In this document: piece after piece, positions 17,658 to 63,074 of the stretch
How the letters are laid out: each line of letters begins with the position of its first letter
Numbering within the stretch: the stretch's first letter is position 1
Assembly: GCF_000967195.1 (NCBI RefSeq)
Contig: NZ_KQ033871.1
Coordinates: 399,090 to 463,089, forward strand
Length of the DNA stretch: 64,000 nucleotides
Source: Lactobacillus kullabergensis
Lineage (GTDB): Bacteria > Bacillota > Bacilli > Lactobacillales > Lactobacillaceae
Direction: 5' to 3'
The notes under the pieces: generated by a model
Told to the model about the DNA's origin: nothing
The model's database searches: none
What the model saw: the letters and a program-made list of their open reading frames with translations, nothing else
Position numbers and translations under genes: made by a program

Positions 17658-18377
17658 ATGGAATTTAAAGAAAGAACTGCTGCAGTACAAGTACAAGAAT
17701 ACTTAGAATTTTTAATTCACTTTAAAAAAGTGAGTGAATTGCCTTCACAACGGGAAATTTCAGAAAAATTACAAGTTAGTCGTAATGCAGTTAAACATGC
17801 TTTAGACAGGCTTAAAAATGAAGGCCAAATACAAGCCAAAGAACGAACGGGAATAATTTCTAACAGGAAAATTGACATTAATATGCTAGGCATGGACTCA
17901 ATGACAACTGAACTTAAGAATAAAACTGTCAAAATTAAGCACTTGGCAACCACCATTGAAAAAATGCCAGGGAGATTAAAGGATTTTTTTAATGCACCTG
18001 AAGGACTGGTTATCAAGATTGCACGAATTAGGTTTGTCAAAGATATTCCTTTAACCTATGAAATAACATATTTTAATCAAACAGATTTTACCAGACTGGC
18101 AAATATTGATTTTACTAATAAGTCACTTTATGAGGTACTGGAAAAAGAATATCAGATCAAACCAACATATGGTAGAGAGAGTATCTGTTGTTTTTTGGCT
18201 GATAAAAAAATAGGCAGTCTGTTGCAGGTCAAAAAGGGGACTCCTCTCTATCAAGTGAACAGCTTTAATTATCAAGATGACGATTTTCCAATTGAGAGTA
18301 CTACCCAATATTTATTAGGAAATAAATTTAAATATCATTTTAATGCCAATAATATTTATGATTATCAAGAGGATTAG
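17658..18377 (+). CDS. GntR family regulator with UTRA sensor domain (first of pair)
   Basis: A 239-residue regulator. The N-terminal winged helix (about 10-70) contains PSQREISEKLQVSRNAVKHAL; the rest fits the UTRA ligand-binding fold, which senses small molecules, often sugar phosphates. It opens the mannose-family PTS operon, 2 nt ahead of a second GntR gene. The likely ligand is a phosphorylated Amadori compound handled by the downstream SIS proteins, which is inference. Confidence 0.87.
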   Translation: MEFKERTAAVQVQEYLEFLIHFKKVSELPSQREISEKLQVSRNAVKHALDRLKNEGQIQAKERTGIISNRKIDINMLGMDSMTTELKNKTVKIKHLATTIEKMPGRLKDFFNAPEGLVIKIARIRFVKDIPLTYEITYFNQTDFTRLANIDFTNKSLYEVLEKEYQIKPTYGRESICCFLADKKIGSLLQVKKGTPLYQVNSFNYQDDDFPIESTTQYLLGNKFKYHFNANNIYDYQED

Positions 18378-18379
18378 TT

Positions 18380-19069
18380 TTGCTTTTTAAAGAAATATAT
18401 GCTGATTTGGATCAAAGAATCAATAATGGCGGTTATCCGCCCGGTAGCACGCTCCCAAATGAAGCTGAATTGCAAAAAAAATATGATGTTAGTAGAACCA
18501 CAATTAGAAAAGCTGTTAATAAATTAGTAGCTGAAAATAAAGTTGTGCGTAAAAAAGGAAGTGGTTTATTTGTTGCTCCAATAATTTCTAAGCAAAATAT
18601 TTTGGAAATGACAGGCATTATTAGGCCGTTATATTTGGAGTCATCGGACAAAATAAAATTTAAGGATACTTATCTAAGGCTAGTTGGTTCATATTATGCT
18701 GCAGTTTTTAATGTGAACTCACAGGAGTTATTATATGATATTTCTTTTAGAGCGGAAATTAAGGGTGAAATTACCTGTGAACATTTACTTTTACTTTTAG
18801 ATAACTTTCCGGGATTTGATTCAAATTGCTTAAAAGTAATGTCAATTATTGAAGCGGTCAATACCGGTACACAGAAGCCAGATGATGTTTACCAAGACTT
18901 TCAGTTAATTAAAGCAACAGAAGAAATTAGTAAGCAATTTCATATCCAAGAAAAAGATCCTGTGTTTAAAATTACGAACCTGTTTTCAACTAGACAAGGT
19001 AAAATTGTAGCCCTAGAGTACAGACTGCAGGATGCTGTAAAAACAAGGTACTCAATAGATTTTAGTTAA
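18380..19069 (+). CDS. GntR family regulator (second of pair)
   Basis: A 229-residue regulator with a clear GntR winged helix (about 1-65, including GSTLPNEAELQKKYDVSRTT) and a UTRA-like C-terminal half. It begins with TTG 2 nt after the previous regulator, with AGAGGA upstream. Two different GntR proteins in tandem at the head of one catabolic operon is unusual; they may respond to different substrates or act as a pair. They are only distantly alike outside the DNA-binding part. Confidence 0.84.
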   Translation: MLFKEIYADLDQRINNGGYPPGSTLPNEAELQKKYDVSRTTIRKAVNKLVAENKVVRKKGSGLFVAPIISKQNILEMTGIIRPLYLESSDKIKFKDTYLRLVGSYYAAVFNVNSQELLYDISFRAEIKGEITCEHLLLLLDNFPGFDSNCLKVMSIIEAVNTGTQKPDDVYQDFQLIKATEEISKQFHIQEKDPVFKITNLFSTRQGKIVALEYRLQDAVKTRYSIDFS

Positions 19070-19083
19070 TGGAGGAAAGAAAA

Positions 19084-19554
19084 ATGATTAAACTAGTGCG
19101 AGTTGACCATCGCTTGGTCCATGGGCAAGTAGCTGTTTCCTGGTTTAATAGTTTAGACGTTAATACGATATTTGTAGTAAATGATGATGTTGCCCATGAT
19201 GATTTTCGCAAATCGGCCATCAGATTGGCAAAACCGGAAAAGTCTAAACTGGTAATGAAGTCTGTAGCAGACAGTATTAAAGCAATTAATTCTGGGGTAA
19301 CCGATAAATATAAAATGTTAATCGTAGTGGAATCGGTTGCTGACGCCGTTGAATTAATTAAAGGAACTGGAGACAAAATAACGAGCCTTAATCTTGGTGG
19401 CACTAAGCCTAGAGAAGGAACAACAAACTACTCTAAAACAATTAATTTAACTGCAGAGGAGGCTAATGAATTAGCTCAGTTGCAGCAAAAGGGAGTAGAT
19501 GTTTGGATTCAGCAGGTGCCAAATGATGAGAAACAAGAATTTCATAAAAAATGA
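19084..19554 (+). CDS. PTS mannose-family IIB component
   Basis: A 156-residue cytosolic phosphocarrier of the mannose/fructose/sorbose family. The phosphorylated histidine is in VDHRLVHGQV, near residue 13. It passes phosphate from IIA to the sugar carried by IIC/IID. ATG 19084 follows GGAGGAAAG; an upstream in-frame ATG at 19069 overlaps the regulator stop and is less likely. IIC, IID and IIA follow in the operon, so the permease is complete. Confidence 0.92.
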   Translation: MIKLVRVDHRLVHGQVAVSWFNSLDVNTIFVVNDDVAHDDFRKSAIRLAKPEKSKLVMKSVADSIKAINSGVTDKYKMLIVVESVADAVELIKGTGDKITSLNLGGTKPREGTTNYSKTINLTAEEANELAQLQQKGVDVWIQQVPNDEKQEFHKK

Positions 19555-19567
19555 TTGGAGGTAAATA

Positions 19568-20398
19568 ATGAATGTATATTTAACCGCAATTATTTTGGCT
19601 TTAATTGCGATGATGGGTAACGGTGAATACTTTGTTGGTTCATCCATGCTGTCAAGGCCACTTGTAACCTGTACGCTAACTGGCTTAGTCTTGGGTAATC
19701 TGCATCAGGGAATTATTATGGGGGCAACTTTGGAGTTAGCCTTTGTTGGTTCATTTTCTATTGGTGCGGCAATCCCCCCAGAAATAATTTCCGGTAGTGT
19801 TTTGGGAACTGCTTTCGCCATCGGAGCGGGCAAGAGTACTGCGGTTGCTTTAACCTTGGGGATTCCAATTGCATCTCTGGTTTTGGTAATCAAAAATTTG
19901 TGCTTTATTTTCATATTACCGTTCTTCGTTCACCGCGCTGATAAATATGCCGAAGAAGCTGATGGCAGTGGTGTAAGTCGGATGAACGTACTGGGCGGCT
20001 TTTTCTCGGTTAACCTGCCAATAGGTTTAGTAGTTGGTATTTCCTATGTCCTAGGCAGCCCGGTAATTAAAGCAATTTTAGCAGTCATTCCCCAATTTAT
20101 TATTAATGGCTTGGGAATTGCCACAGGGCTTCTACCAGCATATGGTTTTGCTCTGCTGCTTAAGATGATGGTCAACAAGAATAATGTCACTTTCTTTATT
20201 ATTGGTTTTGCCTTGGCAGTCTATCTCAAAGTATCAGTAACTGGGGTAGCTATTTTCGGCGCATGTTTGGCCCTTATTCTAACTGGCTATTCCGCTTTTA
20301 AAGGCCAACCGTTAGTAAATACTGCTGCTAATTCTAATAACACAAGTGAAAAAGATGCAGATGATGGAGGCATAGATTATGAAGATGAAGAATTCTAA
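19568..20398 (+). CDS. PTS mannose/sorbose-family IIC component
   Basis: A 276-residue membrane channel subunit with about seven or eight hydrophobic segments and the family segment GIIMGATLELAFVGSFSIGA near residue 55. A GGAGGT ribosome site precedes the ATG. The C-terminal 30 residues form an acidic tail (EKDADDGGIDYEDEEF). It overlaps IID by 20 nt. The IIB-IIC-IID set, next to two SIS-domain enzymes, is like gfr-type fructoselysine/glucoselysine systems. Confidence 0.92.
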   Translation: MNVYLTAIILALIAMMGNGEYFVGSSMLSRPLVTCTLTGLVLGNLHQGIIMGATLELAFVGSFSIGAAIPPEIISGSVLGTAFAIGAGKSTAVALTLGIPIASLVLVIKNLCFIFILPFFVHRADKYAEEADGSGVSRMNVLGGFFSVNLPIGLVVGISYVLGSPVIKAILAVIPQFIINGLGIATGLLPAYGFALLLKMMVNKNNVTFFIIGFALAVYLKVSVTGVAIFGACLALILTGYSAFKGQPLVNTAANSNNTSEKDADDGGIDYEDEEF

Positions 20399-21200
20399 GT
20401 TACTCACTAGAAAAGATTTAATGAAAACATTCTGGCGGTCCTTTACGATGGAATGGGCTTGGAATTATGAACGCCAAATGAATCTTGGCTATGCCTACTC
20501 TATGGTTCCGGCTTTACGAAAGATCTATGGTAAAAACAAGGAAAAATTAAAGGACGCTTATAAGCGGCACCTTGAGTTTTATAATGTTACGCCATGGCTA
20601 AGTACTTTTCCTTTAGGTATTTCAATCGCAATGGAAGAGCAAAACGAACTTGATCCAGATTTTGATGCTGCCTCAATCAATAACATTAAAGTTGCTTTAA
20701 TGGGACCTTTGAGTGGTATTGGTGATTCATTCTTTTGGGGTACGTTAAGGGTTATTGCTACAGGAATTGGTACTTCTCTTGCAATGCAAGGTAATATTTT
20801 AGGACCAATTTTGTTCTTGCTAATTTTTAATATTCCGGCCATTATCACTAGATACTACGGTTTGTTTATTGGCTACAATATCGGTTCCTCCTTTATCGAC
20901 AAAGTGCAAAAGACAGGTTTAATGGATAAGCTAACTTATGGCGCTTCAGTTTTAGGACTTGCTGTTGTCGGGGCTATGGTTGCGACCATGGTAACGTTAA
21001 AAATGCCTTTGAAGATTGGCAGTGGTGCTGAAGCAACCACCGTCCAAAAAATTTGTGATGGCATTGTTCCTGGTATTTTACCTCTGTTGTTCACATTCTT
21101 TATTTTCTGGCTTGATAAAAAAGGTTGGAAATCACAATATATTTTGTTGCTGATAGCAGCAATCGGAATATTTGGTGCCTGGTCAGGACTGCTGGGTTAG
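20379..21200 (+). CDS. PTS mannose-family IID component
   Basis: A 273-residue membrane subunit with the family N-terminus (WRSFTMEWAWNYERQMNLGY), the ALMGPLSGIGDSFFWGTL segment near residue 110, and C-terminal membrane helices. It pairs with IIC to translocate the sugar. ATG 20379 lies 8 nt after GGAGG and within the end of the IIC gene; ATG 20385 is also possible. Confidence 0.92.
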   Translation: MKMKNSKLLTRKDLMKTFWRSFTMEWAWNYERQMNLGYAYSMVPALRKIYGKNKEKLKDAYKRHLEFYNVTPWLSTFPLGISIAMEEQNELDPDFDAASINNIKVALMGPLSGIGDSFFWGTLRVIATGIGTSLAMQGNILGPILFLLIFNIPAIITRYYGLFIGYNIGSSFIDKVQKTGLMDKLTYGASVLGLAVVGAMVATMVTLKMPLKIGSGAEATTVQKICDGIVPGILPLLFTFFIFWLDKKGWKSQYILLLIAAIGIFGAWSGLLG

Positions 21201-21218
21201 TAATTTAAGGAGACTCTT

Positions 21219-22286
21219 GTGAAAAGTATAGAAGATTATGTCCACTTAGAACCAAAATACTATGAAGCAGTTTTGCAAAATTATGCCGACTTGTTTGACA
21301 ATCAGATAGCACAAATAAATCATAATATTACTAATGTTGTTATTTATGCAACTGGTTCAAGTTCTAACGCCGCATATGGTGCATTGCCGTTTATGAGTAA
21401 TATTTTAAAAATGCCGGTAAAAATTGAAGAGCCTTCTATTGCAGAAAATTATTTGCTTCATGTTGAGCCAAATTCTTTATGCATTGCAATATCTCAAGGC
21501 GGTCACAGCTATTCCGTAGTAAAAATTATTCAGCGATTACAAGATGCCGGTAATACGGTCTTTGCTTTAACCAGTGAGCTTGATAGTCCAGTTGGAAAAG
21601 TTTGTCAGCACGTTTTGGATATGGGAATGCCAATTGAAGAAATGCCTTATGTCAGTGCTGGCTATAGCGTAGAAATTTTAGATTTAATGTTGCTAGCAAT
21701 GTTAATTGCACAAAAAACAGGCAAACTTTCGTCTGTAGAATTTACAAAACTTTTGGCTGAAATAAAAAGTATAGTCCTTAAAATGCCTGAAGTAATTAAT
21801 AGTGCAAGCAACTGGGTTGAAAATAACATTAGTAATTTTGCCACTGCGAAAAGATTAGTTTTTATCGGTTACGGTGCAGCTTATGGTGTCAGCCGCGAAG
21901 GTGAAACCAAGACGACTGAAGCTGTCAGAATTAATTCGTGGGGAAAAGAACTGGAAGAATACATGCATGGTCCTTATCTGGGATTGAATGCGGATGACTT
22001 TATCATTTGTATAGACCCGATGGGAAAACTCCACGATAGGATGGATCTTTTAAAGCAGTTCTTAAATAAGCATGTTAAAAATGTCTACACAATATATGCA
22101 GGTAAAGATGAAAATGCAACAGCTGACGACCTCAGTTTAGGTATTACAACAAGTGAACTTTTGGCTTCTTTATTTATGACGGTACCGGTTCACTTGCTAG
22201 CCTATAAGTTATCACAAGTGAAGAAGATAGATTTGCAACATTCTGCGTACCCGGATTTTGATCAGATAACAGCTTCAAAAATATAG
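21219..22286 (+). CDS. SIS-domain protein, likely glucoselysine-6-phosphate deglycase (GfrE-like)
   Basis: A 355-residue protein with two SIS (sugar isomerase) domains, as in the isomerase half of GlmS but without a glutaminase domain. SQGGHSYSVVK near residue 92 is the phosphate-binding segment of the first domain, and EEYMHGPYLG near 247 lies in the second. The start is GTG with AAGGAG 8 nt upstream. Together with the second SIS protein and the PTS, the closest described arrangement is gfr, in which GfrE and GfrF split glycated-lysine phosphates to hexose 6-phosphate and lysine. The exact substrate is inferred from context. Confidence 0.75.
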   Translation: MKSIEDYVHLEPKYYEAVLQNYADLFDNQIAQINHNITNVVIYATGSSSNAAYGALPFMSNILKMPVKIEEPSIAENYLLHVEPNSLCIAISQGGHSYSVVKIIQRLQDAGNTVFALTSELDSPVGKVCQHVLDMGMPIEEMPYVSAGYSVEILDLMLLAMLIAQKTGKLSSVEFTKLLAEIKSIVLKMPEVINSASNWVENNISNFATAKRLVFIGYGAAYGVSREGETKTTEAVRINSWGKELEEYMHGPYLGLNADDFIICIDPMGKLHDRMDLLKQFLNKHVKNVYTIYAGKDENATADDLSLGITTSELLASLFMTVPVHLLAYKLSQVKKIDLQHSAYPDFDQITASKI

Positions 22287-22312
22287 AATAATTTTAAAAA
22301 AGAGGAAGAAAA

Positions 22313-23308
22313 ATGCGTAAATTTAACAAGCAAAAATTAATTGATAGTATGACTGGTGCCCTTAAACTGCGGAGCCAAATTAACGATGTGATTGATCCAC
22401 TATTTAAAAAAGGCATAACCAATATTTGCTGGCTGGGAATCGGTGGCACCTATGCTTCGGGGATGCAGGCTAATATCCACATGAAAGAAAAAAGTGGTTT
22501 AGAAACTTTTTATCAAAATGCCGCTGAATATAATGTAACTGGTAATAAACGTATTACCGACAAGACCTTGGTGGTAATTTCCTCAGTTACTGGAAATACC
22601 AAAGAAATGGTTGATGCAGTTAAAAACATAAATCAAGTTGGTGCAATCATTTTAGGTTTTATGGACGACCCACACGCTAAATTAGCTTCAATGCTAACGT
22701 ATTGTATTTCTTATCCTGAAAATGAACAGTTAAAATTCTTTATGGTCGGAGACCGCTTAATGTATTTGAACGGTGAATTTCCAGATTATGATGAGTTTTA
22801 TCAAGAAATGGATCAACATTTTGCACAAGACATTGCTGATATTGAAGAAAATGCGGATGATTTTGCCCAAAAATTTGCCGAGAAACACCATGACGATGAA
22901 ATTCACTATTTTGTCGGTGCCGGCAATCAATGGGGCGCAACTTATTCATATGCAATGTGCTATTGGGAAGAACAACACTGGATTAGAACGCGCGCAGTGG
23001 AAGCAGCAGAATTTTTCCATGGGATGTTTGAAATCGTTGATCGTGATACTCCAGTTACTGTCTATGTTGGTGAGGACAGTCAACGGCCATTAAGTGAACG
23101 TGTTGCTAAATTTTTACCAGAAATTTGTGGTAACTATACTATTATTGATTCTAAAGACTATGACCTGCCAGGTTTTTCAGAAAAATATCGTGGCACCTTG
23201 TCACCGTTTGTCTTCCATGCGATTAATAACAGAATTGACGTTCACATTGAACATATTAACCGTCATCCGATGGATATTCGCCGTTACTACCGCTGTTTAG
23301 ATTATTAA
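22313..23308 (+). CDS. SIS-domain protein, likely fructoselysine-6-phosphate deglycase (GfrF/FrlB-like)
   Basis: A 331-residue SIS protein. SSVTGNTKEMVDAV near residue 94 is the first phosphate-binding segment, AEFFHGMFEIVDRD near 238 carries a likely catalytic region, and the C-terminus ends in DIRRYYRCLDY. That ending and the EFFHG motif recur in the FrlB-like protein at 44259 (AEYFHGPFEV, DVRRYMGHLDY), so the two are homologues. Frl/Gfr-type deglycases convert fructoselysine 6-phosphate to glucose 6-phosphate and lysine. AAGAGGAAG precedes the ATG. Confidence 0.78.
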   Translation: MRKFNKQKLIDSMTGALKLRSQINDVIDPLFKKGITNICWLGIGGTYASGMQANIHMKEKSGLETFYQNAAEYNVTGNKRITDKTLVVISSVTGNTKEMVDAVKNINQVGAIILGFMDDPHAKLASMLTYCISYPENEQLKFFMVGDRLMYLNGEFPDYDEFYQEMDQHFAQDIADIEENADDFAQKFAEKHHDDEIHYFVGAGNQWGATYSYAMCYWEEQHWIRTRAVEAAEFFHGMFEIVDRDTPVTVYVGEDSQRPLSERVAKFLPEICGNYTIIDSKDYDLPGFSEKYRGTLSPFVFHAINNRIDVHIEHINRHPMDIRRYYRCLDY

Positions 23309-23323
23309 TTATAGTGTGATTAT

Positions 23324-23737
23324 ATGGTTGGAGTAATTATTTGTACACATGGTAATTCAGCACCTGAATTATTAAAGTCAGCAGAAATGATTTGTGGTAA
23401 ACAAGAAAATTGCCAAACCGTGAGTTTCAAAGAGGGCGAATCTTTAGAACAATTAAAGTCTGAAATAAGTGAAAAAATCAGCCAACTAAAAGGAACAGTT
23501 TTTTGTTTAACAGATCTAAAGGGAGGAACTCCTTTTAATACGCTGGTCAGCTTACTAAAGAGCAATCCGGAAATGGAAATTATCACGGGTGTTAATATTC
23601 CCATGTTGCTGGAACTGTTCATCAATCGTAGTCAGTTAGAAACAGAGGAGTTGCTTTCTGCTACTTTAGAGGCAGGTAAAACTGGAGTTTATCACTACCA
23701 AGATATTGATTCTGGGACAGCAGATGAAGAATTCTAA
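23324..23737 (+). CDS. PTS mannose-family IIA component
   Basis: A 137-residue phosphocarrier with the active-site histidine in IICTHGNSAPELL (His9) and the family segment LTDLKGGTPFN near residue 64. It takes phosphate from HPr and gives it to IIB. It closes the operon and is followed by a strong terminator. IIA being last, after the two SIS genes, differs from the usual IIA-first order. Confidence 0.9.
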   Translation: MVGVIICTHGNSAPELLKSAEMICGKQENCQTVSFKEGESLEQLKSEISEKISQLKGTVFCLTDLKGGTPFNTLVSLLKSNPEMEIITGVNIPMLLELFINRSQLETEELLSATLEAGKTGVYHYQDIDSGTADEEF

Positions 23738-44049: not shown

Positions 44050-44085
44050 AAAAAGCAATTCACGAGTTTGTGAATTGCTTTTTTT
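44050..44085 (+). terminator. Terminator after amino acid transporter operon
   Basis: AAAAAGCAATTCAC pairs with GTGAATTGCTTTTT across a 6-nt loop, ending in seven T. Confidence 0.93.
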
Positions 44086-44187: not shown

Positions 44188-44216
44188 TTGACATATTAAA
44201 AATTAGCTATTATCTT
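44188..44216 (+). promoter_or_regulatory. Promoter of the frl-opp operon
   Basis: TTGACA at 44188 and TATCTT at 44211 are 17 nt apart. Immediately downstream the sequence ATATAAC is repeated with 10-bp period (44221-44236), a possible regulator site. Confidence 0.5.
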
Positions 44217-44258
44217 ATAATATAACATCATATAACAAGAATGATTGAGAGGTTAAAA

Positions 44259-45236
44259 ATGAAAAAAGAATATCAACAAGAAATTAAGAATGCTCTTGCC
44301 GCTGCAGAAAAGATTGATGGCATTAATCATGTCTATTTTGTAGCTTGTGGAGGATCGATGGCTTTTATGCAACCAGCTGAATATATTTTCAACCGCGAAT
44401 GTGATATTCCAGCCACAATTTTACCAGCACGGGAATTTACAACACGTAATCCTCATGATTTGTGCAATCATAGTTTAGTAGTTTCTTGTTCACATTCAGG
44501 TAGTACGCCAGAAACAAATGAGGCAGTTAATTTTGCCAAGAGTAAAGGTGCTCTAACAGTAGGTATTACCTATACAGCAGGTTCTGACTTAGAAAAGAAT
44601 TCCGATTTCACTTTGCACTACAGTTGGGGCAAAGGTACCGATGCTTCTGATTTAAATAATGGTGTTTTGTATGGTTTCATATTTAGTCTATTGAAGTCCA
44701 TAACTGGTGATAACAAATTTGAAAAAGGCCTGAAAGCTTTGGATAGCTTAGAAACTATGGCTGACAGGGTAAGAAAACAATTTGGAGAAACTGCAAAGAA
44801 ATGGACCAGTGAATTAAAACGCGAAAAATTAATTTATGCTGTAGGATCAGGTATTAATACTGGAGAAACATATTCATTTTCAGCTTGTTGGCTTCAGGAA
44901 ATGCAATGGATTCATAGTGGATATATCAATTCTGCTGAATATTTCCACGGTCCTTTTGAAGTAACAGATTTTGATGTGCCATTTATCATTTGCAAAGGAT
45001 TAGGCGTTACCAGAAAAATGGATCAACGTGTAATCGATTTTGCTAAAAAGCATAGTCAAAAAGTTTACGTGATTGACGACGCTGACTTTGATATGCATGA
45101 AGTAGATGACGACTTTAAAGAATACTATTCTCAGATTCTTTCAGGAGTTGCTTTCCGTCAATTAGCCGAAGGATTTGCTTATGAAAGAGGACACTCACTA
45201 GATGTCCGTCGTTATATGGGACATCTGGATTATTAA
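44259..45236 (+). CDS. frlB: SIS-domain deglycase, FrlB-like (fructosamine-6-phosphate deglycase)
   Basis: A 325-residue SIS protein. SCSHSGSTPETNEAV (near residue 83) is the phosphate-binding loop, SAEYFHGPFEVTD lies near 227, and the protein ends DVRRYMGHLDY, matching the homologue at 22313. FrlB-type enzymes split fructosamine 6-phosphates to glucose 6-phosphate and a free amine. ATG 44259 follows GAGAGG; ATG 44241 precedes that site. It is followed 14 nt later by a FrlD-like kinase, the same pairing as in frl operons, then by a peptide-type ABC transporter. Confidence 0.8.
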   Translation: MKKEYQQEIKNALAAAEKIDGINHVYFVACGGSMAFMQPAEYIFNRECDIPATILPAREFTTRNPHDLCNHSLVVSCSHSGSTPETNEAVNFAKSKGALTVGITYTAGSDLEKNSDFTLHYSWGKGTDASDLNNGVLYGFIFSLLKSITGDNKFEKGLKALDSLETMADRVRKQFGETAKKWTSELKREKLIYAVGSGINTGETYSFSACWLQEMQWIHSGYINSAEYFHGPFEVTDFDVPFIICKGLGVTRKMDQRVIDFAKKHSQKVYVIDDADFDMHEVDDDFKEYYSQILSGVAFRQLAEGFAYERGHSLDVRRYMGHLDY

Positions 45237-45250
45237 AAAGGCTGTAAATC

Positions 45251-46066
45251 ATGAAAATAATTGCAGTTGGTGACAATGTAGCTGATACATACATCAAGCA
45301 AAAGATATTTTTTCCAGGCGGAAATTGTGTCAATGTATCAGTTGATGCCAAAAAAGCCGGAGCTGATGTTTCAGCTTATCTGGGAATGTTTGGAGATGAC
45401 GATCGAGCACAGCATATTAAAGAATCTTTAACAGAAGAAAATGTAGAACTTATTAATTGTCGTAAGGTCTATGCTCCCACAGCACAGCCTCGAGTTATTC
45501 TCACAGATGAAGGTGATAGAACTTTTGCTCCTGGTCCTAAAAATTCAGTAATGCATTTGTTATCCTTAAGGCTTACCCCAACAGATTTTGCGGAAATAAA
45601 AAAATTTGATGTTGTTCATGTTGGAATTGATTCGGGAATTGAAAATTATCTTGATGAATTACATCATATTACCAAAGTATCATTTGATTTTTCAGATTCT
45701 CGCAATGAAAGTTATTTTAAACGTGTTTTACCGTTTGTAGATTATGCTTTCTTTTCAGGTTCAGAGATGTCTGATGAACAAGTGGAAGAATTTGCTAAAA
45801 AATATTTAACTTTGGGACCGGAAGTCATAGTCATCACAAGAGGTGCAAATTCTGCATTCTTGTTAACTTCACAGAAATCCTATTATCAAAAACCACAAAA
45901 AGTAAAAGTCGTTGACACTATGGGTGCAGGTGACAGCTTTATTGCTGGTTTTCTAGTTTCTTACTTAAATAAAAACAATCTGCAAGAAGCTGCTTTAGCA
46001 GCTAGTAAAAATGCTGCAGCTACTTGCCAACTATCTGGTGGTTTTGGTCATCAGAAATCTTTTTAG
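45251..46066 (+). CDS. frlD: PfkB-family kinase, FrlD-like (fructoselysine 6-kinase type)
   Basis: A 271-residue ribokinase-fold kinase. The start MKIIAVGDNVADTY, the FPGGNCVNVSV segment near 24 and the C-terminal DTMGAGDSFIAGF (near 222, with the catalytic Asp) are close to FrlD. Such kinases phosphorylate fructosamines at O6 after entry, producing the FrlB substrate. A separate kinase is needed because an ABC transporter, unlike a PTS, delivers unphosphorylated substrate. Only 15 nt separate it from the binding-protein gene. Confidence 0.82.
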   Translation: MKIIAVGDNVADTYIKQKIFFPGGNCVNVSVDAKKAGADVSAYLGMFGDDDRAQHIKESLTEENVELINCRKVYAPTAQPRVILTDEGDRTFAPGPKNSVMHLLSLRLTPTDFAEIKKFDVVHVGIDSGIENYLDELHHITKVSFDFSDSRNESYFKRVLPFVDYAFFSGSEMSDEQVEEFAKKYLTLGPEVIVITRGANSAFLLTSQKSYYQKPQKVKVVDTMGAGDSFIAGFLVSYLNKNNLQEAALAASKNAAATCQLSGGFGHQKSF

Positions 46067-46081
46067 AAAAGAGTGATATTT

Positions 46082-47701
46082 ATGAAAAAAAGTGCATTGT
46101 TTGCAACTGCAATTGCATGTGTAGGCTTGTTAATAACAGGATGCCAGAAAAACTCCAGTTCTGGTACAAAAAATCAAGATAAAATTACTGTTGTTCAAAA
46201 TGCAACGGTTGACTCTCTTGACCCGATTTTAGCGTATCAAAACACATCTTCAACAGTTGTAGCTAATACAACCGAAGGCTTGTACACTATTGATGCCCAC
46301 GATAAGCCCCAATTGGCATTGGCCTCTAAAGTTAAAACGAGTAATCATGGACTCACCAAGACTTTTACTATTCGTAAAAACGCCAACTGGTCAAATGGTG
46401 ATCCTGTAACAGCAAATGATTTTGTTTTTGCCTGGCGGCGGTTGTCTGATCCTAAGATTGCTTCAGCCTTTAACTTCCAACCAGGTGCGGCTGGCATTAA
46501 AAATGCTAATGACATTGTAGCTGGCAAGAAGCCGGTCAAGTCATTGGGCGTTAAGGCTACAGGTCCTAAAACTCTAGTAGTGCAATTGGATCATGTTGTA
46601 CCTTACATGAACAAGTTGCTGGCATTCAGTGATTTTGCTCCTGTCAATCAGAAATACTTCCAAAAAACTGGTAAAAAATTTGCACAAGATTCCAGTCATT
46701 TAATTTATTCTGGTCCATACCAAATCAAGGATTGGAAATTAGGCGATAACACTATCCAGTTAGTTAAAAATCCTAAATATTGGGATGCCAAAAATGTCAA
46801 AATTAAGAATGTTAAGCTTGATATTATTACAGACCCAGAAAAGGCAGCTATTGCATTCGAAAATGGCAGTGCAGACTATGTTCACTTAAGTGGTCAGCTT
46901 GTTTCTAAATATCGAAAAGATAAGAACTTTGTCAATGATGTTGGTAATTTTACACAGTACATTATGTTTAATCTGAAAAAACCGGGATTAGATAATGCTG
47001 ATCTGCGTAAGGCAATTTCTTGCAGCATTAACCGTAAAGAAATAACAACTCACATCCTAAAAGATGGTTCAATTCCTTCTCATTCTATGGTTATGAAAGA
47101 TTTGGTTAAGAATCCGACAACAGGCAAAGATTTTGCAGATGAATCAACTACTAATCTTTACGAGTATTCACCAGCTCAAGCTAAAAAGTATTGGAATAAG
47201 GCAAAAAAAGCAACTAACTTGCGTTCATTTACCTTGCTTTATGATGACAGTGATCCTTCATATGCTAACGTAGCTGCGTATATCAAGGCTCAAGTTGAAA
47301 AACACCTTCCTGGCATGAAAGTGACACTGCAGCAAGTAGCAAAGAAGACTAGAACTGATAAGATGTCAAAAGCTACTTATGATGCTACTTTAACTCGTTG
47401 GGGACCAGACTATGCTGATCCAACAGCGATCTTGAGTATGTATCAATCTAAGAACGACAGCAATTACGGTCGCTGGGCAAATTCAGAATTTGATAAGTTA
47501 ATGGCTCAATCTGATCAAACAACTGATCAAGCTAAGAGATACAAATTGCTTCTTAAGGCAAACAATATCCTAATTGACAGTGCTTCTTGCCCACCGCTAT
47601 ATCAGATTGGTGCACCAGTTTTGGAACGATCTAATATTAAAGATTTACCGATGCATATTGCAGGTGTACCATTCTTCTTCAAATATGCTTCAATTAAATA
47701 A
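46082..47701 (+). CDS. Peptide-type ABC transporter, substrate-binding lipoprotein (OppA/DppA family)
   Basis: A 539-residue family 5 solute-binding protein with a signal peptide and lipobox (LLITGC, Cys near residue 21). NATVDSLDPILAYQ near 45, KTFTIRKNANWSNGDPVTANDFVFAWRR region near 100-125 and LTRWGPDYADPTAILSMY near 438 are typical. ATG 46082 follows AAGAGTG. It binds peptides or similar extended ligands outside the cell. Its place behind frlB and frlD suggests glycated peptides or amino acids. A hairpin follows it. Confidence 0.88.
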   Translation: MKKSALFATAIACVGLLITGCQKNSSSGTKNQDKITVVQNATVDSLDPILAYQNTSSTVVANTTEGLYTIDAHDKPQLALASKVKTSNHGLTKTFTIRKNANWSNGDPVTANDFVFAWRRLSDPKIASAFNFQPGAAGIKNANDIVAGKKPVKSLGVKATGPKTLVVQLDHVVPYMNKLLAFSDFAPVNQKYFQKTGKKFAQDSSHLIYSGPYQIKDWKLGDNTIQLVKNPKYWDAKNVKIKNVKLDIITDPEKAAIAFENGSADYVHLSGQLVSKYRKDKNFVNDVGNFTQYIMFNLKKPGLDNADLRKAISCSINRKEITTHILKDGSIPSHSMVMKDLVKNPTTGKDFADESTTNLYEYSPAQAKKYWNKAKKATNLRSFTLLYDDSDPSYANVAAYIKAQVEKHLPGMKVTLQQVAKKTRTDKMSKATYDATLTRWGPDYADPTAILSMYQSKNDSNYGRWANSEFDKLMAQSDQTTDQAKRYKLLLKANNILIDSASCPPLYQIGAPVLERSNIKDLPMHIAGVPFFFKYASIK

Positions 47702-47720
47702 TTTCGTTAAAAGTATTAAT

Positions 47721-47745
47721 AGAGCTGGGATACAATCTCAGCTCT
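47721..47745 (+). terminator. Intra-operon hairpin after the binding-protein gene
   Basis: AGAGCTGGGA pairs with TCTCAGCTCT (one G-U) around TACAA. Only a weak T-rich run follows, so it is likely a partial terminator or an mRNA-stabilising hairpin that keeps binding protein in excess over permease. Confidence 0.65.
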
Positions 47746-47778
47746 GTTTGCTTATTTAGGAAGATTGGAGGGAAAAAC

Positions 47779-48711
47779 TTGAAAAAGTATGTCTTGAAAA
47801 GAATCTTAATTGCAGTGATTACATTATTTTTGATTACTTTGATTCTTTTTATTATGGAAAAGGCAATGCCTGGTTCACCATTTAATGATGAAAAAATGTC
47901 ACATGCTCAAGTAGCGGCACTTTATCATAAATATGGTTTGGATGGCCCAGTGCCATTACAATTTTTTAATTACTTGAAAAATATGTTGTCTGGCGATTTT
48001 GGTGTTTCGTACACGGTTCAGGTTAATACGCCGGTTACTACAATGATTTTGCAGCATTTTACCATTTCACTCCAGATAGGTTTACAGGCTACTGTACTAG
48101 GTTCACTTTTAGGCTTTCTGATGGGAATTTTGGCAGCAATCAAAAAAGGTACAATTTGGGATAACTTAATGACTGGCATTTCTGTTTTGGGAATAAGTCT
48201 TCCTAACTTTGTAGTAGCATTGATCGTGTCAATTATATTTTCTTATAAACTAATGGTCTTTCCAGGAACGTACCAACCAAGTCAGCCTTTTGTATCAAGT
48301 ATTCTGCCTACAATAGCATTGAGTACTTTTACTATGGCAAGTATTGAACGATATGTTAGAAATGACATGATTGATATTATGAATTCTGATTATTATCGTT
48401 TAGCGGATTCAAAAGGAATTAAAAAGTTCCAGTTGATCGGACACCATGTTATCAGAAACACTTTAATTTCAGTTATTACAGTATTAGCACCACTGATGAT
48501 TGACCTAATTGCCGGGAGTATGGTAATTGAAAAAGCTTTTGCTATTCCAGGCTTGGGAACATTGTATATCAGTGCTATACAAGCTAATGACTACAATGTA
48601 GTCTTAGGTATAACTTTCTTTTATGCAGTGCTTTTTATTGGTATTATGTTAATAGTTGATATTCTTTACGGGTTAATAGATCCGCGTATTAGATTAGATG
48701 AGGGCAAATAA
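47779..48711 (+). CDS. oppB: Peptide-type ABC transporter permease, OppB/DppB family
   Basis: A 310-residue permease with six membrane segments, the N-terminal KRILIAVITLFLITLILF helix, and the inner-membrane-component region YYRLADSKGIKKFQLIGHHVIRN near 211 that docks the ATPase. TTG start with GGAGGG upstream. Overlap-free, 2 nt before OppC. Confidence 0.92.
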   Translation: MKKYVLKRILIAVITLFLITLILFIMEKAMPGSPFNDEKMSHAQVAALYHKYGLDGPVPLQFFNYLKNMLSGDFGVSYTVQVNTPVTTMILQHFTISLQIGLQATVLGSLLGFLMGILAAIKKGTIWDNLMTGISVLGISLPNFVVALIVSIIFSYKLMVFPGTYQPSQPFVSSILPTIALSTFTMASIERYVRNDMIDIMNSDYYRLADSKGIKKFQLIGHHVIRNTLISVITVLAPLMIDLIAGSMVIEKAFAIPGLGTLYISAIQANDYNVVLGITFFYAVLFIGIMLIVDILYGLIDPRIRLDEGK

Positions 48712-48713
48712 TT

Positions 48714-49622
48714 ATGACTAATATAGAAAATAATGATTTTGAATTTGCCCATAAATCTGAAACAGTTGACCATTATTCTGGTAAATCTTATTCATATGGG
48801 CAGTTGGTTTGGCATCGCTTTTTAAGAAATAAAGGTGCGGTGATTAGCGCAGTTGTTTTAATTATTATTGCTTTAATAGCCATTCTGGCGCCTTACCTTA
48901 GTCAATACTCACCCACTACACCGTATCCTAACCAGTCTAATTTAGCTCCTGGAGTTAATGGTCATTGGTTTGGAACAGACAACTTAGGCAGAGATATTTT
49001 TGTAAGAGTTGCTGCTGGTACTTCAGTTTCACTAAGGGTTGCTCTGGTGGCAATGGCAATTGATCTGGTTATTGGTACTAGTTATGGCCTGATTTCAGGA
49101 TATTTTGGTGGCAAAATTGATTTATTCATGCAAAGAATAACAGAAATTCTTAGTACTATTCCTATGATCATTATTGTTACTTTGCTTGTTCTGGTCATGA
49201 AGCCAGGTCTAGTAAGCATAATTACTGCGATGATGATTGTCGGCTGGATTAATATGAGTAGAATAGTTCGCGCACAGGTGTTGGAACTAAAAACCAGCGA
49301 GTATGTTTTATCAGCAAAGACAATGGGAGAATCTGATATTAAAATTATTTTCTCTCAAATTTTGCCTAATACATTAGGACAAATAATTACCACATTTATG
49401 TTATCTATTCCGAACGCAATTTTTTTGGAAGCATTCTTAGCCTTTATCGGTTTAGGTGTTCCGGCACCATTAGCTTCATTAGGAACAATGATTAATGATG
49501 GTTATACCCAGGCTATCGTTTACCCATACATGGTCATTTTCCCCGTATTGTTTTTAGCACTAATTATGCTGAGTTTTAATATTATTGCGGATGGCTTACG
49601 GGATGCTATTGAAGGAAGTTAG
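48714..49622 (+). CDS. oppC: Peptide-type ABC transporter permease, OppC/DppC family
   Basis: A 302-residue permease with the N-terminal OppC region (WHRFLRNKGAVISAVVL), GTDNLGRDIFVRV near 83 and the docking segment EYVLSAKTMGESDIKII near 197. It forms the channel with OppB. Confidence 0.92.
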   Translation: MTNIENNDFEFAHKSETVDHYSGKSYSYGQLVWHRFLRNKGAVISAVVLIIIALIAILAPYLSQYSPTTPYPNQSNLAPGVNGHWFGTDNLGRDIFVRVAAGTSVSLRVALVAMAIDLVIGTSYGLISGYFGGKIDLFMQRITEILSTIPMIIIVTLLVLVMKPGLVSIITAMMIVGWINMSRIVRAQVLELKTSEYVLSAKTMGESDIKIIFSQILPNTLGQIITTFMLSIPNAIFLEAFLAFIGLGVPAPLASLGTMINDGYTQAIVYPYMVIFPVLFLALIMLSFNIIADGLRDAIEGS

Positions 49623-49630
49623 GTAAGATT

Positions 49631-50695
49631 ATGACCGAAACAGTTTTAGAAATAAAAAATTTACAAGTAGCCTATCATACCGATCACGGAGAAGTGCAAG
49701 CTGTTAGAGGAATAAGTTATCAGGTAAAAAAGGGTGAAACAGTTGCTTTAGTTGGTGAATCCGGTTGTGGCAAGTCAGCTAGTGTAAAGCCAATCATGGG
49801 CGAAAAAGAAGCCAATCAAATAATTAAATCCGGTGAGATCAATTTCACTTACCAGACTGAAAATGGTCCACAAACAGTTAATTTATTAAAAATTAGTCCC
49901 AAGATTATGCAAAATCGTATTAAGGGCAAAGAAATAGCAATGGTTTTTCAAGACCCAATGACTTCTCTCGATCCAACCATGAAAATTAATAAGCAAATCG
50001 CTGAGGCAGTAAAGGCTTCTCATCCTGAGATGAACAAGGATCAAATCAACGAACGGGTGCTTAATTTAATTGAAACCGTTGGCATTCAAAACATGAAGGT
50101 TGTTCAGAACCAATATCCACATCAACTTTCTGGAGGAATGAGACAGAGAATTGTTATCGCCATTGCGTTGGCCGGGAATCCCAGTTTACTGATCTGTGAT
50201 GAACCAACTACGGGTTTGGATGTTACTATTCAGGCTAAAATTTTGAACCTGATTAAAGATATACAAAAGAGCAGGAAATTATCTGTTATTTTTATAACCC
50301 ATAATTTAGGGGTGGTTGCCAATATTGCAACATATGTGAACGTCATGTATGCTGGAAAAATAGTTGAGACTGGAACGAGCCAAGATATCTTTTTTGAACC
50401 TCGTCACCCATATACTTGGGGTCTGCTTGAATCAGTACCTGATATCAATGAGAAAGTTGACGAATTACCGACTATTGCCGGAACGATTCCAGACTTAACA
50501 CAACCGATTGTTGGAGATGCTTTTGCTCCCAGAAATAAGTATGCCTTAAACATTGATTTTAAAAAACAACCGCCAATGTTTAAAATTAATGACCACCATT
50601 ATGCTGCAACTTGGCTCTTAGATAAAAGAGCTCCCAAAGTACCAATTCCAGTAGTTTTGCAAAAGAGAATTTTAAAAATGAAGGGGGCATCATAA
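49631..50695 (+). CDS. oppD: Peptide-type ABC transporter ATPase, OppD/DppD family
   Basis: A 354-residue ABC ATPase with Walker A GESGCGKSA (near 42), signature LSGGMRQR (near 166), Walker B LLICDEPTTGLD and the C-terminal oligopeptide-transporter extension (EPRHPYTWGLLESVPD). The extension commonly binds an iron-sulfur cluster in some members, but the cysteine set is not seen here. Confidence 0.92.
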   Translation: MTETVLEIKNLQVAYHTDHGEVQAVRGISYQVKKGETVALVGESGCGKSASVKPIMGEKEANQIIKSGEINFTYQTENGPQTVNLLKISPKIMQNRIKGKEIAMVFQDPMTSLDPTMKINKQIAEAVKASHPEMNKDQINERVLNLIETVGIQNMKVVQNQYPHQLSGGMRQRIVIAIALAGNPSLLICDEPTTGLDVTIQAKILNLIKDIQKSRKLSVIFITHNLGVVANIATYVNVMYAGKIVETGTSQDIFFEPRHPYTWGLLESVPDINEKVDELPTIAGTIPDLTQPIVGDAFAPRNKYALNIDFKKQPPMFKINDHHYAATWLLDKRAPKVPIPVVLQKRILKMKGAS

Positions 50696-50698
50696 GCA

Positions 50699-51601
50699 AT
50701 GACTAAAAATATCCTTGAAGTTCATCATTTAAAGCAATATTTTCCAGTTGCAAATAAAAAAATAGTTAAAGCGGTAGATGATGTTTCCTTTAACATTACT
50801 AATGGTGAAACTTTTGGTCTGGTAGGTGAGTCAGGAAGTGGAAAGACCACTATTGGCCGCTCTATTATTCGTCTTTATTGGCCTACTGCTGGTGAGGTGA
50901 TTTTTGAAGGTGAACAAATAGCAGGTCAGTTAAGTAAAAAGCAGACTGCTAAGTTGCGTAAAGACATGCAGATGATTTTTCAAGATCCTATGTCTTCACT
51001 AAATCCTCGTAAAAAAGTTGGTGACATAGTCAAGCTGGGTCTTGATATTCATTATCCTAAATTAACTAAGGATGAAAAACTGCAAAAAGTTATTGAAATG
51101 TTAAAAATAGTTGGTCTTGACTCATCATTTGTTAACCGCTACCCGCAAGAACTTTCAGGTGGACAAAGACAGAGAGTTGGTATTGCCAGAGTAGTTATCA
51201 TGCATCCCAGACTTATTATTGCAGATGAAGCTATTTCTGCTCTAGATGTTTCAGTACAAGCTCAAGTTGTTAATCTTCTTCAAAGAATACAAAGAGAAAG
51301 TGGCAGTGCCATGCTCTTTATTGCCCATGACTTGGCAATGGTCAAACATATTTCAAGTCATATAGGAGTAATTCATTTGGGACATATTGTCGAGATTGGG
51401 CCAACAGAAGCAATTTTTGACGATCCTGTGCATCCTTATACAAAAAGTTTGTTAACCGCTATCCCCACTACTAATCCAATAGCAGAACAAAATAAAAAGT
51501 TATCAAATTATCATGCATTTAGACAACAATATGAAAATAAAGAAATGGCAGATTTAGGCAATGGTCACTATGCAATAGACGATGGGTCGTGGACTAAGTA
51601 A
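50699..51601 (+). CDS. oppF: Peptide-type ABC transporter ATPase, OppF/DppF family
   Basis: A 300-residue ABC ATPase with Walker [10 protein letters not shown] (near 43), signature LSGGQRQR (near 150), Walker [13 protein letters not shown] and the family ending [12 protein letters not shown]. It is the last transporter gene; 62 nt later comes a ClbS-like gene with no terminator between, so the transcript may continue. Confidence 0.92.
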
Positions 51602-51663
51602 AACTCCTTATGATAAAATATTGATAAATAAATTTTTAATATTATCAAGAAAAGGAAAAATAG

Positions 51664-52197
51664 ATGCCACGTCCTAAAACCAAGCAAGAATTAGTTGATG
51701 CAAGTAATTCGTCATACCAGAAGATAGTTGATTTAATCGCTAAGTTGCCAGAGGATGCTCGCACTGGCAGTTTCAATTTTGATACGAGTAAACTAAAAGA
51801 AGCCCATTGGAAGAGAGATCATAATGTACGCGATGTTTTGATCCATTTATATGAATGGCAAAAATTGTTGCTAGAGTGGGTTAAAAGCAATCAATCCGGT
51901 GAAAACAAAGAATTTTTGCCTGAAGGGTATAATTGGCGTAATTATGGTGAAATGAATCAAGAATTTTGGCAAAAGCACCAATCTACGCCACTTGCAGAAG
52001 CAGAAAAAATGCTGGCGAATAGTCATAAACAAACTATGGCTTTGCTTGATACCTATACTGAAGAGCAACTCTTTCAAAAGAATGTTTTTCCTTGGACTGG
52101 TAATAATGCATTAGGTACTTATTTCATTGCAAATACTTGCAGTCATTATGAATGGGCTTTAAAGAAGTTACGAAAATATCAAAGGTCCTTGAAATAA
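51664..52197 (+). CDS. ClbS/DfsB family four-helix bundle protein
   Basis: A 177-residue protein of the DinB-like four-helix superfamily, ClbS/DfsB group, with the typical N-terminus PRPKTKQELVDAS, RDVLIHLYEWQ near 58 and SHYEWALKKLR near the C-terminus. ClbS protects against colibactin by hydrolysing its cyclopropane; most relatives have no known substrate. It may be read from the opp transcript. AAGGAAAA precedes the ATG. Confidence 0.85.
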   Translation: MPRPKTKQELVDASNSSYQKIVDLIAKLPEDARTGSFNFDTSKLKEAHWKRDHNVRDVLIHLYEWQKLLLEWVKSNQSGENKEFLPEGYNWRNYGEMNQEFWQKHQSTPLAEAEKMLANSHKQTMALLDTYTEEQLFQKNVFPWTGNNALGTYFIANTCSHYEWALKKLRKYQRSLK

Positions 52198-52206
52198 TGG
52201 CTTATT

Positions 52207-52237
52207 AAAACCGTTAGCGTAAAAGCTGGCGGTTTTT
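52207..52237 (+). terminator. Terminator after the ClbS-like gene
   Basis: AAAACCG(T)TAGC pairs with GCT(G)GCGGTTTT across a 6-nt loop, ending in TTTTT. It is the first clear terminator after the frl-opp operon. Confidence 0.85.
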
Positions 52238-52490
52238 GTTTTTAATGAGCCACTTATTTAAATAAATCAAAAGTTTGACAATTTATTTATAAAAAATTCT
52301 GATAAAAAACTTTTATAGCTAATGCTCTAAAGCAATATTTCAGGCTTTAAAATATTTTTAGAGTTTTTTAGTTAGTATAATCTACCAAACTTTTCATTCA
52401 GTTATAATTTTAAATGACTGTTATACTAATCTTTGAGTTTGTTATTTTTATTTTAATTTAGTAATATTGAATAGTTAAGGAAGTGTGATA

Positions 52491-53249
52491 ATGAATTCTG
52501 TCAAAACAATAGCTGGCGTACCACTTTACAAAAAAATCTACTTAGATATCAAACAAAAGATTCAGCAAAACATTTTGAAAACTGATGAAAAATTACCGAG
52601 TGAACAATATTTGTGTCAACAATATCAGGTTAGCAGAATAACAGTGCGTAAAGCTCTGAAATTATTGACTGATGAAGGATTAGTAGTTACTATCCAGGGG
52701 AAAGGCTCCTATGTCAATGTCAAAAAAATGAGGGGAAGATTGGAACAAATTGAAGGATTCTCTGAATTTTCTGAGTCTCGCTCTAAAACAAATAAAAAGA
52801 TTATTTTAAAAAGAGAAATTTTACAAAATTCTCAAATTGCTAAGATTTTGCAACTGTCTGAGCCAGCAGATTTAGTTTATATTAAAAGAATTTCTCAAAC
52901 AGGAAATGAGCCTATGGCAATTGATGAAGCCTGGCTATCAGCTGAACGCTTTCCGGAATTACTTACAAATATTCATGAAGATACCTCACTATACCAATAC
53001 CTAGCAGATAATTACCATGAAACTTTAGCAAGTTCATATCGCGAAATCAGCACTATCCTACCCAGTAGTGAACAAGCTAGATTACTGGCATTAACTAATG
53101 TAGTACCACTTTTTGATGTAAACAAGACTGTTTACAATCAGTTTGATCAGCCGCTGGAATTTTCTCATTATGTTGTAAGAGGAGATAAAATGGTTTATAC
53201 TATCGACTCCAAAAATGACAGCAATATTTATTTTAACCACAAAAAGTAA
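52491..53249 (+). CDS. GntR family regulator with UTRA domain (probable frl-opp regulator)
   Basis: A 252-residue regulator with a GntR winged helix (about 10-75, containing KLPSEQYLCQQYQVSRITVRK) and a UTRA domain of the kind that binds phosphorylated sugars or amino sugars. AAGGAAG lies upstream of ATG 52491; a GTG two codons earlier is possible. Frl operons elsewhere are controlled by a GntR protein (FrlR), so this is the best candidate for control of 44259-51601, which is inference from proximity. Confidence 0.86.
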   Translation: MNSVKTIAGVPLYKKIYLDIKQKIQQNILKTDEKLPSEQYLCQQYQVSRITVRKALKLLTDEGLVVTIQGKGSYVNVKKMRGRLEQIEGFSEFSESRSKTNKKIILKREILQNSQIAKILQLSEPADLVYIKRISQTGNEPMAIDEAWLSAERFPELLTNIHEDTSLYQYLADNYHETLASSYREISTILPSSEQARLLALTNVVPLFDVNKTVYNQFDQPLEFSHYVVRGDKMVYTIDSKNDSNIYFNHKK

Positions 53250-62910: not shown

Positions 62911-62982
62911 AGCTTTTTAGCTAAAATGAGTAAGAAAAGTCTTGTGTTAAATTTAATTTTGGGTTATAGTATTGAATGTGCT

Positions 62983-63068
62983 GCGGGCATGGCGGAATGG
63001 CAGACGCGCAAGACTAAGGATCTTGTGATCGCTTTTAGATCGTGGAAGTTCGAGTCTTCTTGCCCGCA
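62983..63068 (+). tRNA. tRNA-Leu (anticodon AAG)
   Basis: An 86-nt class II tRNA with acceptor GCGGGCA/TGCCCGC, long variable arm and anticodon loop CTAAGGA. A34 is unusual for bacterial leucine tRNA, which normally has GAG; it may be deaminated to inosine by TadA. It stands alone and is followed by a terminator. Confidence 0.94.
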
Positions 63069-63074
63069 TTTTTT

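Follow-up and report, generated by a model that had tools for sequence, protein, structure and literature searches.

FrlB- and FrlD-type enzyme genes joined to an Opp-type peptide importer in Lactobacillus and Weissella: a probable module for small Amadori compounds

What does a peptide-type importer carry when its genes stand directly behind those of a deglycase and a kinase of the frl type? The question is raised by a locus in a 64,000-nt stretch of the Lactobacillus kullabergensis genome (the window, to which plain positions refer), in which seven genes on the plus strand, at 44241/44259-51601, encode a SIS protein, a PfkB protein, an OppA-type binding protein, two permeases and two oligopeptide-type ATPases. 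Amadori (fructosamine) products are plentiful in food that has been heated or stored, including honey, and to our knowledge their bacterial uptake is known for few systems. We found the same seven genes joined in 13 genomes of two genera and consider it probable that they form a dedicated module for the uptake and catabolism of small Amadori compounds, of which we infer the cotranscription, substrate, reaction order and regulation. The genes are as follows.

44259..45236 (in-frame ATG also at 44241), plus strand: frlB-type SIS deglycase gene (325 aa; Pfam SIS; best match in the PDB, 3eua)
45251..46066, plus strand: frlD-type PfkB kinase gene (Pfam PfkB; best NCBIfam match, fructoselysine 6-kinase NF007321)
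46073 (GTG) or 46082 (ATG)..47701, plus strand: oppA-type gene for a family-5 binding lipoprotein (Pfam SBP_bac_5; lipobox-like LITGC by eye)
47779..48711 (TTG start), plus strand: oppB-type permease gene (Pfam BPD_transp_1; best NCBIfam match Opp3B, 349 bits against a cut-off of 480)
48714..49622, plus strand: oppC-type permease gene (Pfam OppC_N and BPD_transp_1; best NCBIfam match Opp3C, 360 bits against a cut-off of 450)
49631..50695, plus strand: oppD-type ATPase gene (Pfam ABC_tran and oligo_HPY)
50699..51601, plus strand: oppF-type ATPase gene (Pfam ABC_tran and oligo_HPY)

The initial annotation of this DNA had described the FrlB/FrlD-type pair, the lipoprotein, the two permeases, the two ATPases and a GntR regulator nearby, and Pfam domains and open reading frames (ORFs) bear out all of these parts, with their coordinates and spacing. 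The genes are closely packed (SIS to PfkB 14 nt; PfkB to oppA 6 nt from the GTG or 15 nt from the ATG; oppB to oppC 2 nt; oppC to oppD 8 nt; oppD to oppF 3 nt), and the widest gap, of 77 nt, lies between oppA and oppB. An SBP_bac_5 lipoprotein, two permeases and two oligo_HPY ATPases make up a domain set that is complete for an ATP-binding cassette (ABC) importer of the Opp/Dpp (peptide/opine/nickel) kind.

The annotation had proposed that genomes with an OppA-family gene joined to frlB and frlD be sought, and such genomes exist. A four-row FrlB alignment (A1) at E ≤ 1e-100 matched 13 of 75 Lactobacillus genomes, and reading all 13 neighbourhoods gave frlB-frlD-oppABCDF in 11 of them: the window genome, G098, G626 (L. 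apis), G636 (L. huangpiensis), G639 (Lactobacillus sp. W8174), G642 (L. kimbladii), G644 (L. laiwuensis), G646, G659, G670 (a metagenome-assembled genome, MAG) and G682. At this threshold G661 and G665 had only an frlB linked to a phosphotransferase system (PTS), and G659 had a PTS-linked and an Opp-linked frlB. Among 28 Weissella genomes frlB was found at E ≤ 1e-40 in two (W. hellenica and W. bombi), both with the cassette, which brings the species-level genomes to 13; a contig scan with two short peptide patterns gave at least 8 loci, as a lower bound. The joining of FrlBD to Opp is thereby confirmed and stands more strongly than when first claimed, and a chance neighbourhood was rejected because the seven genes recur in 13 genomes.

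The flanks of the cassette are unrelated in Weissella and the MAG, and there the regulator gene is divergent from frlB, so that the unit can be taken as gntR plus the seven genes. The GntR regulator is near the cassette in 11 of the 13 loci; it was not seen in the stretches read for the L. huangpiensis and G646 cassettes. Pairwise identities of the eight proteins co-vary (r 0.92 to 0.99 over 10 loci, 8 for GntR, values that genome relatedness inflates), and L. kimbladii is a nearest named relative of the cassette (OppA 100%, FrlB 99% identical). A DUF1706 gene comes next after oppF in the window, as it does in the loci of L. kimbladii, L. huangpiensis, L. laiwuensis, W8174, L. apis and G646; because none was observed next to the cassettes of G098, G659, G682, the MAG and Weissella, it was rejected as a member of the unit. 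In Weissella hellenica NBRC 15553 (L021:13105-14007) the oppB frame is broken into two ORFs of 205 and 91 aa, which may mean that this strain has no working cassette; oppB is full in W. bombi.

The importer has kept its own company as well. Cassette OppAs are 59-100% identical to the window OppA, other family OppAs at most 42% among the matches listed, and the cassette clade is supported at 100/100 against 15 other family OppAs. When OppA without frlBD was looked for in a draw of 221 family genomes (the genus having been searched with FrlB and GlnH), OppA scored above 730 bits in 3 of the 221, exactly the three with the cassette, and the next best score was 361. The possibility that the cassette Opp is simply the general Opp of the genome was rejected, a second system being present at C2:1171-1176 kb with an OppC only 32% identical. 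The clade is set apart by 46 distinctive alignment columns, R439 and P442 beside the amine anchor included; R439, found in 14 of 14 clade OppAs and in 0 of 15 others, stands immediately before the W440-x-x-D443 amine-anchor motif, near which it might bind a carboxylate.

The enzymes point to the frl pathway, since by sequence the locus has an FrlB-type SIS protein, an adjacent FrlD-type PfkB protein and a linked GntR/UTRA regulator. Against the PDB the SIS protein matches 3eua, a 'putative fructose-aminoacid-6-phosphate deglycase', at 282 bits (residues 26-331), followed by 9otj (185) and 3fkj (175). Glu214 and His230 (numbered in the 325-residue form), whose equivalents we take to be the catalytic pair of FraB, are present in the window protein and do not vary across the four A1 sequences, and 9otu has Ala at the position where 9otj has the Glu aligned to Glu214, as expected of a catalytic variant. 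In a tree of 63 SIS proteins (a quick tree, whose deep forks are partly open) the 13 Opp-linked proteins form one clade (Shimodaira-Hasegawa-like approximate likelihood ratio test, SH-aLRT, 100) among frl/gfr-like SIS proteins, sister to eight PTS-linked proteins and then to four from other Bacilli linked to sugar-type ABC transporters, all four of whose loci have SBP_bac_1 binding proteins by Pfam. Transporter labels on this tree were given by eye, from gene order and the beginnings of the sequences, or from resemblance to proteins of the window, and Pfam confirmed those of L130-L133 and L138 (SBP_bac_1), L146 (amino-acid permease), L141 and L143 (DcuC), L028 and L136 (SBP_bac_3) and L145 (SBP_bac_5). 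Related deglycases thus seem to have been paired with a sugar-type ABC transporter, a PTS and an Opp importer, and the tree has the shape that a swap of transporters around an enzyme of constant function would give.

The regulatory and flanking features of the locus are these.

44188..44216, plus strand: promoter-like site, TTGACA-17-TATCTT, with a similar -35/-10 layout by eye before frlB in most orthologous loci
44220..44237, plus strand: operator-like element ATATAACATCATATAACA, made of two direct repeats of 8 bases each, immediately downstream of the -10 and before frlB
47718..47748, plus strand: stem-loop between oppA and oppB (14 pairs, 5 of them G-C)
51664..52197, plus strand: the DUF1706 gene, between oppF and the regulator gene
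52207-52236: terminator-like hairpin between the DUF1706 gene and the GntR/UTRA regulator gene
52485..53249, plus strand: GntR/UTRA regulator gene (Pfam GntR and UTRA), with a presumed FrlR-like role

Shuffled sequence is nearly as rich in promoter-like sites as the region (46.8 vs 50), and the site at 44188 is credible only because it is conserved across loci. The 16-base core of the operator-like element, TATAACATCATATAAC, is exact in 11 of the 13 cassettes, including both from Weissella although their upstream DNA otherwise differs; it has one mismatch in G659 and has drifted in the MAG. Among 189 loci, 28 hold the core, every one a stretch of the 11 genomes with the exact core, and the window genome has a single exact copy (three more matches need three mismatches, and a backwards control also gives three). 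The element is likely to be a regulator-binding site, and the linked GntR protein would be the one that binds it.

FrlBD and Opp are conserved and inherited together, and a GntR regulator is close by in 11 of the 13 loci; the Opp proteins are therefore best read as an importer dedicated to the compound on which FrlBD act. A surface lipoprotein of OppA/DppE fold would capture an alpha-fructosyl amino acid or a short fructosyl-peptide, OppBC and OppDF would import it with ATP as the energy source, the FrlD-type kinase would phosphorylate the sugar at C6, and the FrlB-type SIS enzyme would split the product into glucose 6-phosphate and the free amino acid or peptide. The GntR/UTRA protein would repress the frlB promoter, and the phosphorylated compound would relieve this repression.

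Several observations weigh against a dedicated Amadori module, beginning with the enzymes. The kinase scores 167.3 bits where the NCBIfam fructoselysine 6-kinase family, though its best, has a cut-off of 247, and the deglycase scores 102.7 bits where the E. coli-type equivalog NF008481 has a cut-off of 430, so far below it that the protein is not of the E. coli subtype. With both E. coli equivalog cut-offs missed, and SIS and PfkB being broad families, the two enzymes might act on another amino- or N-linked sugar and not on Amadori compounds, which we regard as highly improbable given that 3eua is the best PDB match, that 9otj and its deposited Ala variant come next, that the best kinase family is fructoselysine 6-kinase and that the tree puts the SIS protein among frl/gfr-like loci.

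A second set of objections concerns the importer genes and their transcription. Upstream lies a separate GlnQHPP-type amino-acid ABC operon (end at 44024; terminator-like hairpin at 44050-44083), which could import the substrate instead; and the stem-loop after oppA, which the initial annotation overlooked and which has counterparts at the same place in the further Lactobacillus loci that were folded, divides oppA from oppBCDF, so that their cotranscription is a matter of inference. The hairpin likely acts in partial termination or in mRNA stabilisation favouring the binding protein, and oppBCDF expression may consequently be below that of oppA. A second, tandem oppA is present in L. apis (L038:13720-15348; 74% identical to the window OppA) and in G646 (L087:12562-14190; 72%), after gaps of 277 nt and 220 nt, respectively. 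In the L. apis gap there is a GC-rich hairpin flanked or followed by runs of A and T (a consensus scan does not count it as a terminator) and, before the second oppA, a TTGACA-17-TATCTT promoter-like pair resembling the one before frlB but without an intact repeat, a stretch similar by eye being present in G646; oppA2-oppBCDF may therefore be a separate transcript in L. apis. Of the single operon first proposed, then, what holds is a conserved, co-inherited unit, and what is doubtful is one transcript everywhere.

These features would also suit an ordinary peptide importer that merely shares the locus, with the Amadori compound entering through GlnQHPP or another system. GlnQHPP is directly upstream in 10 of the 11 Lactobacillus loci, and amino-acid ABC transporters stand beside SIS-PfkB pairs elsewhere. 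GlnQHPP is, however, absent from the Weissella and MAG cassettes, whereas opp is in 13 of 13, and of 23 Lactobacillus genomes with GlnH at ≥ 85% identity 13 are without the cassette at the FrlB threshold (two of them incomplete), on which grounds GlnQHPP was rejected as a unit member. Together with the co-variation of the eight proteins and the finding of close OppA orthologs only with frlBD (3 of 3 in the 221 genomes), this makes such a division of labour quite unlikely.

The last objections bear on the cargo. The OppA model matches DppE, OppA, PrgZ and MppA structures. Its closest experimental structures are those of peptide binders, with ligands that range from tripeptides to longer peptides or are murein tripeptide. 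The Asp that anchors the amine is retained, which would equally hold for an ordinary peptide binder: D443 is invariant in all 29 OppA rows and is matched through the W-x-x-D pattern to Trp436/Asp439 of MppA, where D439 is described as holding the ligand amine (PMC6022919). The fold matches also include sialic-acid-binding proteins, AccA of A. tumefaciens and NikZ with Ni(L-His). These ligands, the clade-specific Arg439 at the amine anchor, the place of the nearest deglycase relatives beside a PTS or sugar-type ABC transporter and the import of fructosevaline by B. subtilis FrlONM all favour a narrower form of the Amadori reading, in which the binding protein has been re-tooled and only free fructosyl-amino acids, with no peptide involved, are taken up. 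The peptide ligands of the best structural matches to the modelled fold count against it, and we hold it to be quite possible while stopping short of favouring it.

Alternatively, the importer may take up glycated peptides, either glycated at the N terminus or glycated on Lys and trimmed inside the cell by peptidases to fructoselysine before FrlD and FrlB act. Peptides are the main livelihood of lactobacilli, the importer is of peptide type and the Asp443 anchor is kept; on the other side, FrlB scores higher against 3eua (282 bits) than against 3fkj (175 bits), structures of the alpha-glycated and the fructoselysine type, respectively, the cassette is without a peptidase gene, and the Bacillus enzymes are described as specific for alpha-glycated amino acids (PMC12632257). 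This form is possible, if on the doubtful side. That glycated peptides are salvaged intact, with OppA binding N-terminally fructosylated di- and tripeptides and FrlD and FrlB acting on the peptide itself so that its N terminus is unblocked for aminopeptidases, seems to us unlikely. The initial annotation had proposed uptake of glycated peptides or larger Amadori compounds; of this, an importer that serves FrlBD is supported as the best reading, and peptide cargo is possible, B. subtilis FrlONM-FrlBD handling free fructosevaline and the OppA fold including sialic-acid binders too.

How does a dedicated Opp-type Amadori module compare with known systems? The B. subtilis frlBONMD-frlP locus, with FrlR, likewise has an FrlB-type SIS protein, an FrlD-type PfkB kinase, a dedicated ABC importer and a GntR-family regulator. 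Its importer is a type I sugar-type ABC transporter (FrlONM with FrlP or MsmX), whereas that of the cassette is SBP_bac_5/OppBCDF with its own OppD and OppF. PMC12632257 describes import of fructosevaline by FrlONM, a preference or specificity of FrlBD for alpha-glycated amino acids and repression by FrlR, and mentions an earlier report of FrlR as an activator. Intestinimonas AF211 likewise has three parts, a kinase, a deglycase and an ABC transporter, proposed for fructoselysine (PMC4697335).

The gfr-type loci with a mannose-family PTS share FrlB-like SIS proteins and GntR-type regulators with the cassette, and the PTS-linked proteins are the sister clade of its FrlB. A PTS phosphorylates its substrate during uptake, whereas the cassette has an ABC importer with a separate kinase and no PTS gene at 44241-53249. 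The window itself has a gfr-type cluster at 17658-23737 (two GntR-type regulators, PTS IIB, IIC and IID, two SIS proteins and EIIA-man), with no kinase among its eight genes. Five FrlB-like SIS matches were found in the window genome, that of the cassette and four in three PTS-rich regions, and the two further such regions lie near C2:1505-1516 kb and C2:327-333 kb. With the Opp/Dpp peptide importers (B. subtilis DppE/OppA, Listeria OppA, PrgZ, MppA) the cassette has fold, domain set and amine-anchor Asp in common, and it differs from them in that its Opp is joined to frlBD and its OppA forms a separate clade.

The statement that known frl and gfr operons use only a sugar-type ABC transporter, a simple permease or a PTS proved too narrow, as SIS-PfkB pairs also stand beside SBP_bac_3 ABC, polyamine-type ABC, DcuC-family, MFS, TRAP and peptide-family ABC transporters. 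A class-level search gave matches in 17 of 398 genomes, and 18 regions were read, corresponding to 19 of 21 non-own places (two G1013 places were left out). These are mostly of sugar-type ABC by eye (five by Pfam), the others having DcuC-family, amino-acid permease or amino-acid ABC genes, and a co-oriented Opp set was in none of the 18 kinase regions read; in G802 (L145) an SBP_bac_5-OppB-OppC set is divergent from an amino-acid ABC-SIS-GntR-PfkB row. Elsewhere, in G066, G190 and G241 (L028, L029 and L030), a lone family-3 binding protein gene is just upstream of SIS-PfkB-GntR, with no adjacent permease gene in the stretch read.

Plasmids gave 228 records with a SIS match, of which 10 were read. 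In the Allorhizobium ampelinum/Agrobacterium vitis cluster (AVI_RS23970-AVI_RS24025) the SIS and PfkB genes are joined by a GntR gene and by a peptide-family ABC transporter with SBP_bac_5, two permease domains and oligo_HPY ATPases by Pfam in A. ampelinum S4 (L191) and the same annotation in A. vitis CG78 (L197). There the transporter is divergent from the enzymes with gntR between them, genes for oxoprolinase A/B, aspartate dehydrogenase, a dehydratase and an aminotransferase are also present, and the binding protein is ~20% identical to the window OppA, so that recruitment was probably separate. The other eight records have, by annotation, polyamine-type, unspecified, sugar-type or amino-acid ABC, MFS or TRAP transporters. 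In Priestia filamentosa (L195), SIS, PfkB and oxoprolinase genes occur together, with MFS. We found no description of Opp genes with frlBD in the open-licence PMC literature at abstract level, which is not proof of absence in print. The Opp-linked cassette suggests a further route by which bacteria could live on early Maillard products.

The host genome (2.12 Mb in six contigs; window GC ~35-37%) is probably that of a bee-gut inhabitant, and L. huangpiensis, L. laiwuensis and W. bombi are, we assume, bee-derived. The window also holds 27 clustered tRNA genes, in which a Met-Asp-Phe block recurs (13-2752), and a lone tRNA-Leu with anticodon AAG (62982-63069). Buckwheat honey is described as containing N-fructosyl Tyr, Val, Leu, Ile, Phe, Pro and pyroglutamate (PMC12114437), and the Firm-5 lactobacilli of Apis cerana have been singled out for their fructoselysine/glucoselysine PTS genes (PMC9478171).

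Were glycated peptides salvaged intact after all, the cassette would represent a bacterial pathway for peptide-bound Amadori products suited to the sugar- and pollen-rich gut of the bee, and a peptide importer re-tooled for N-blocked ligands, with the most clade-specific residues, R439 and P442, at the amine-anchor motif. More broadly, a peptide-type importer in an frl cassette across two genera, with an apparently separate recruitment in rhizobia too, would widen the list of Amadori importers; it would give a handle on bacteria that feed on glycated peptides and a possible sensor protein for glycated amino acids or peptides.

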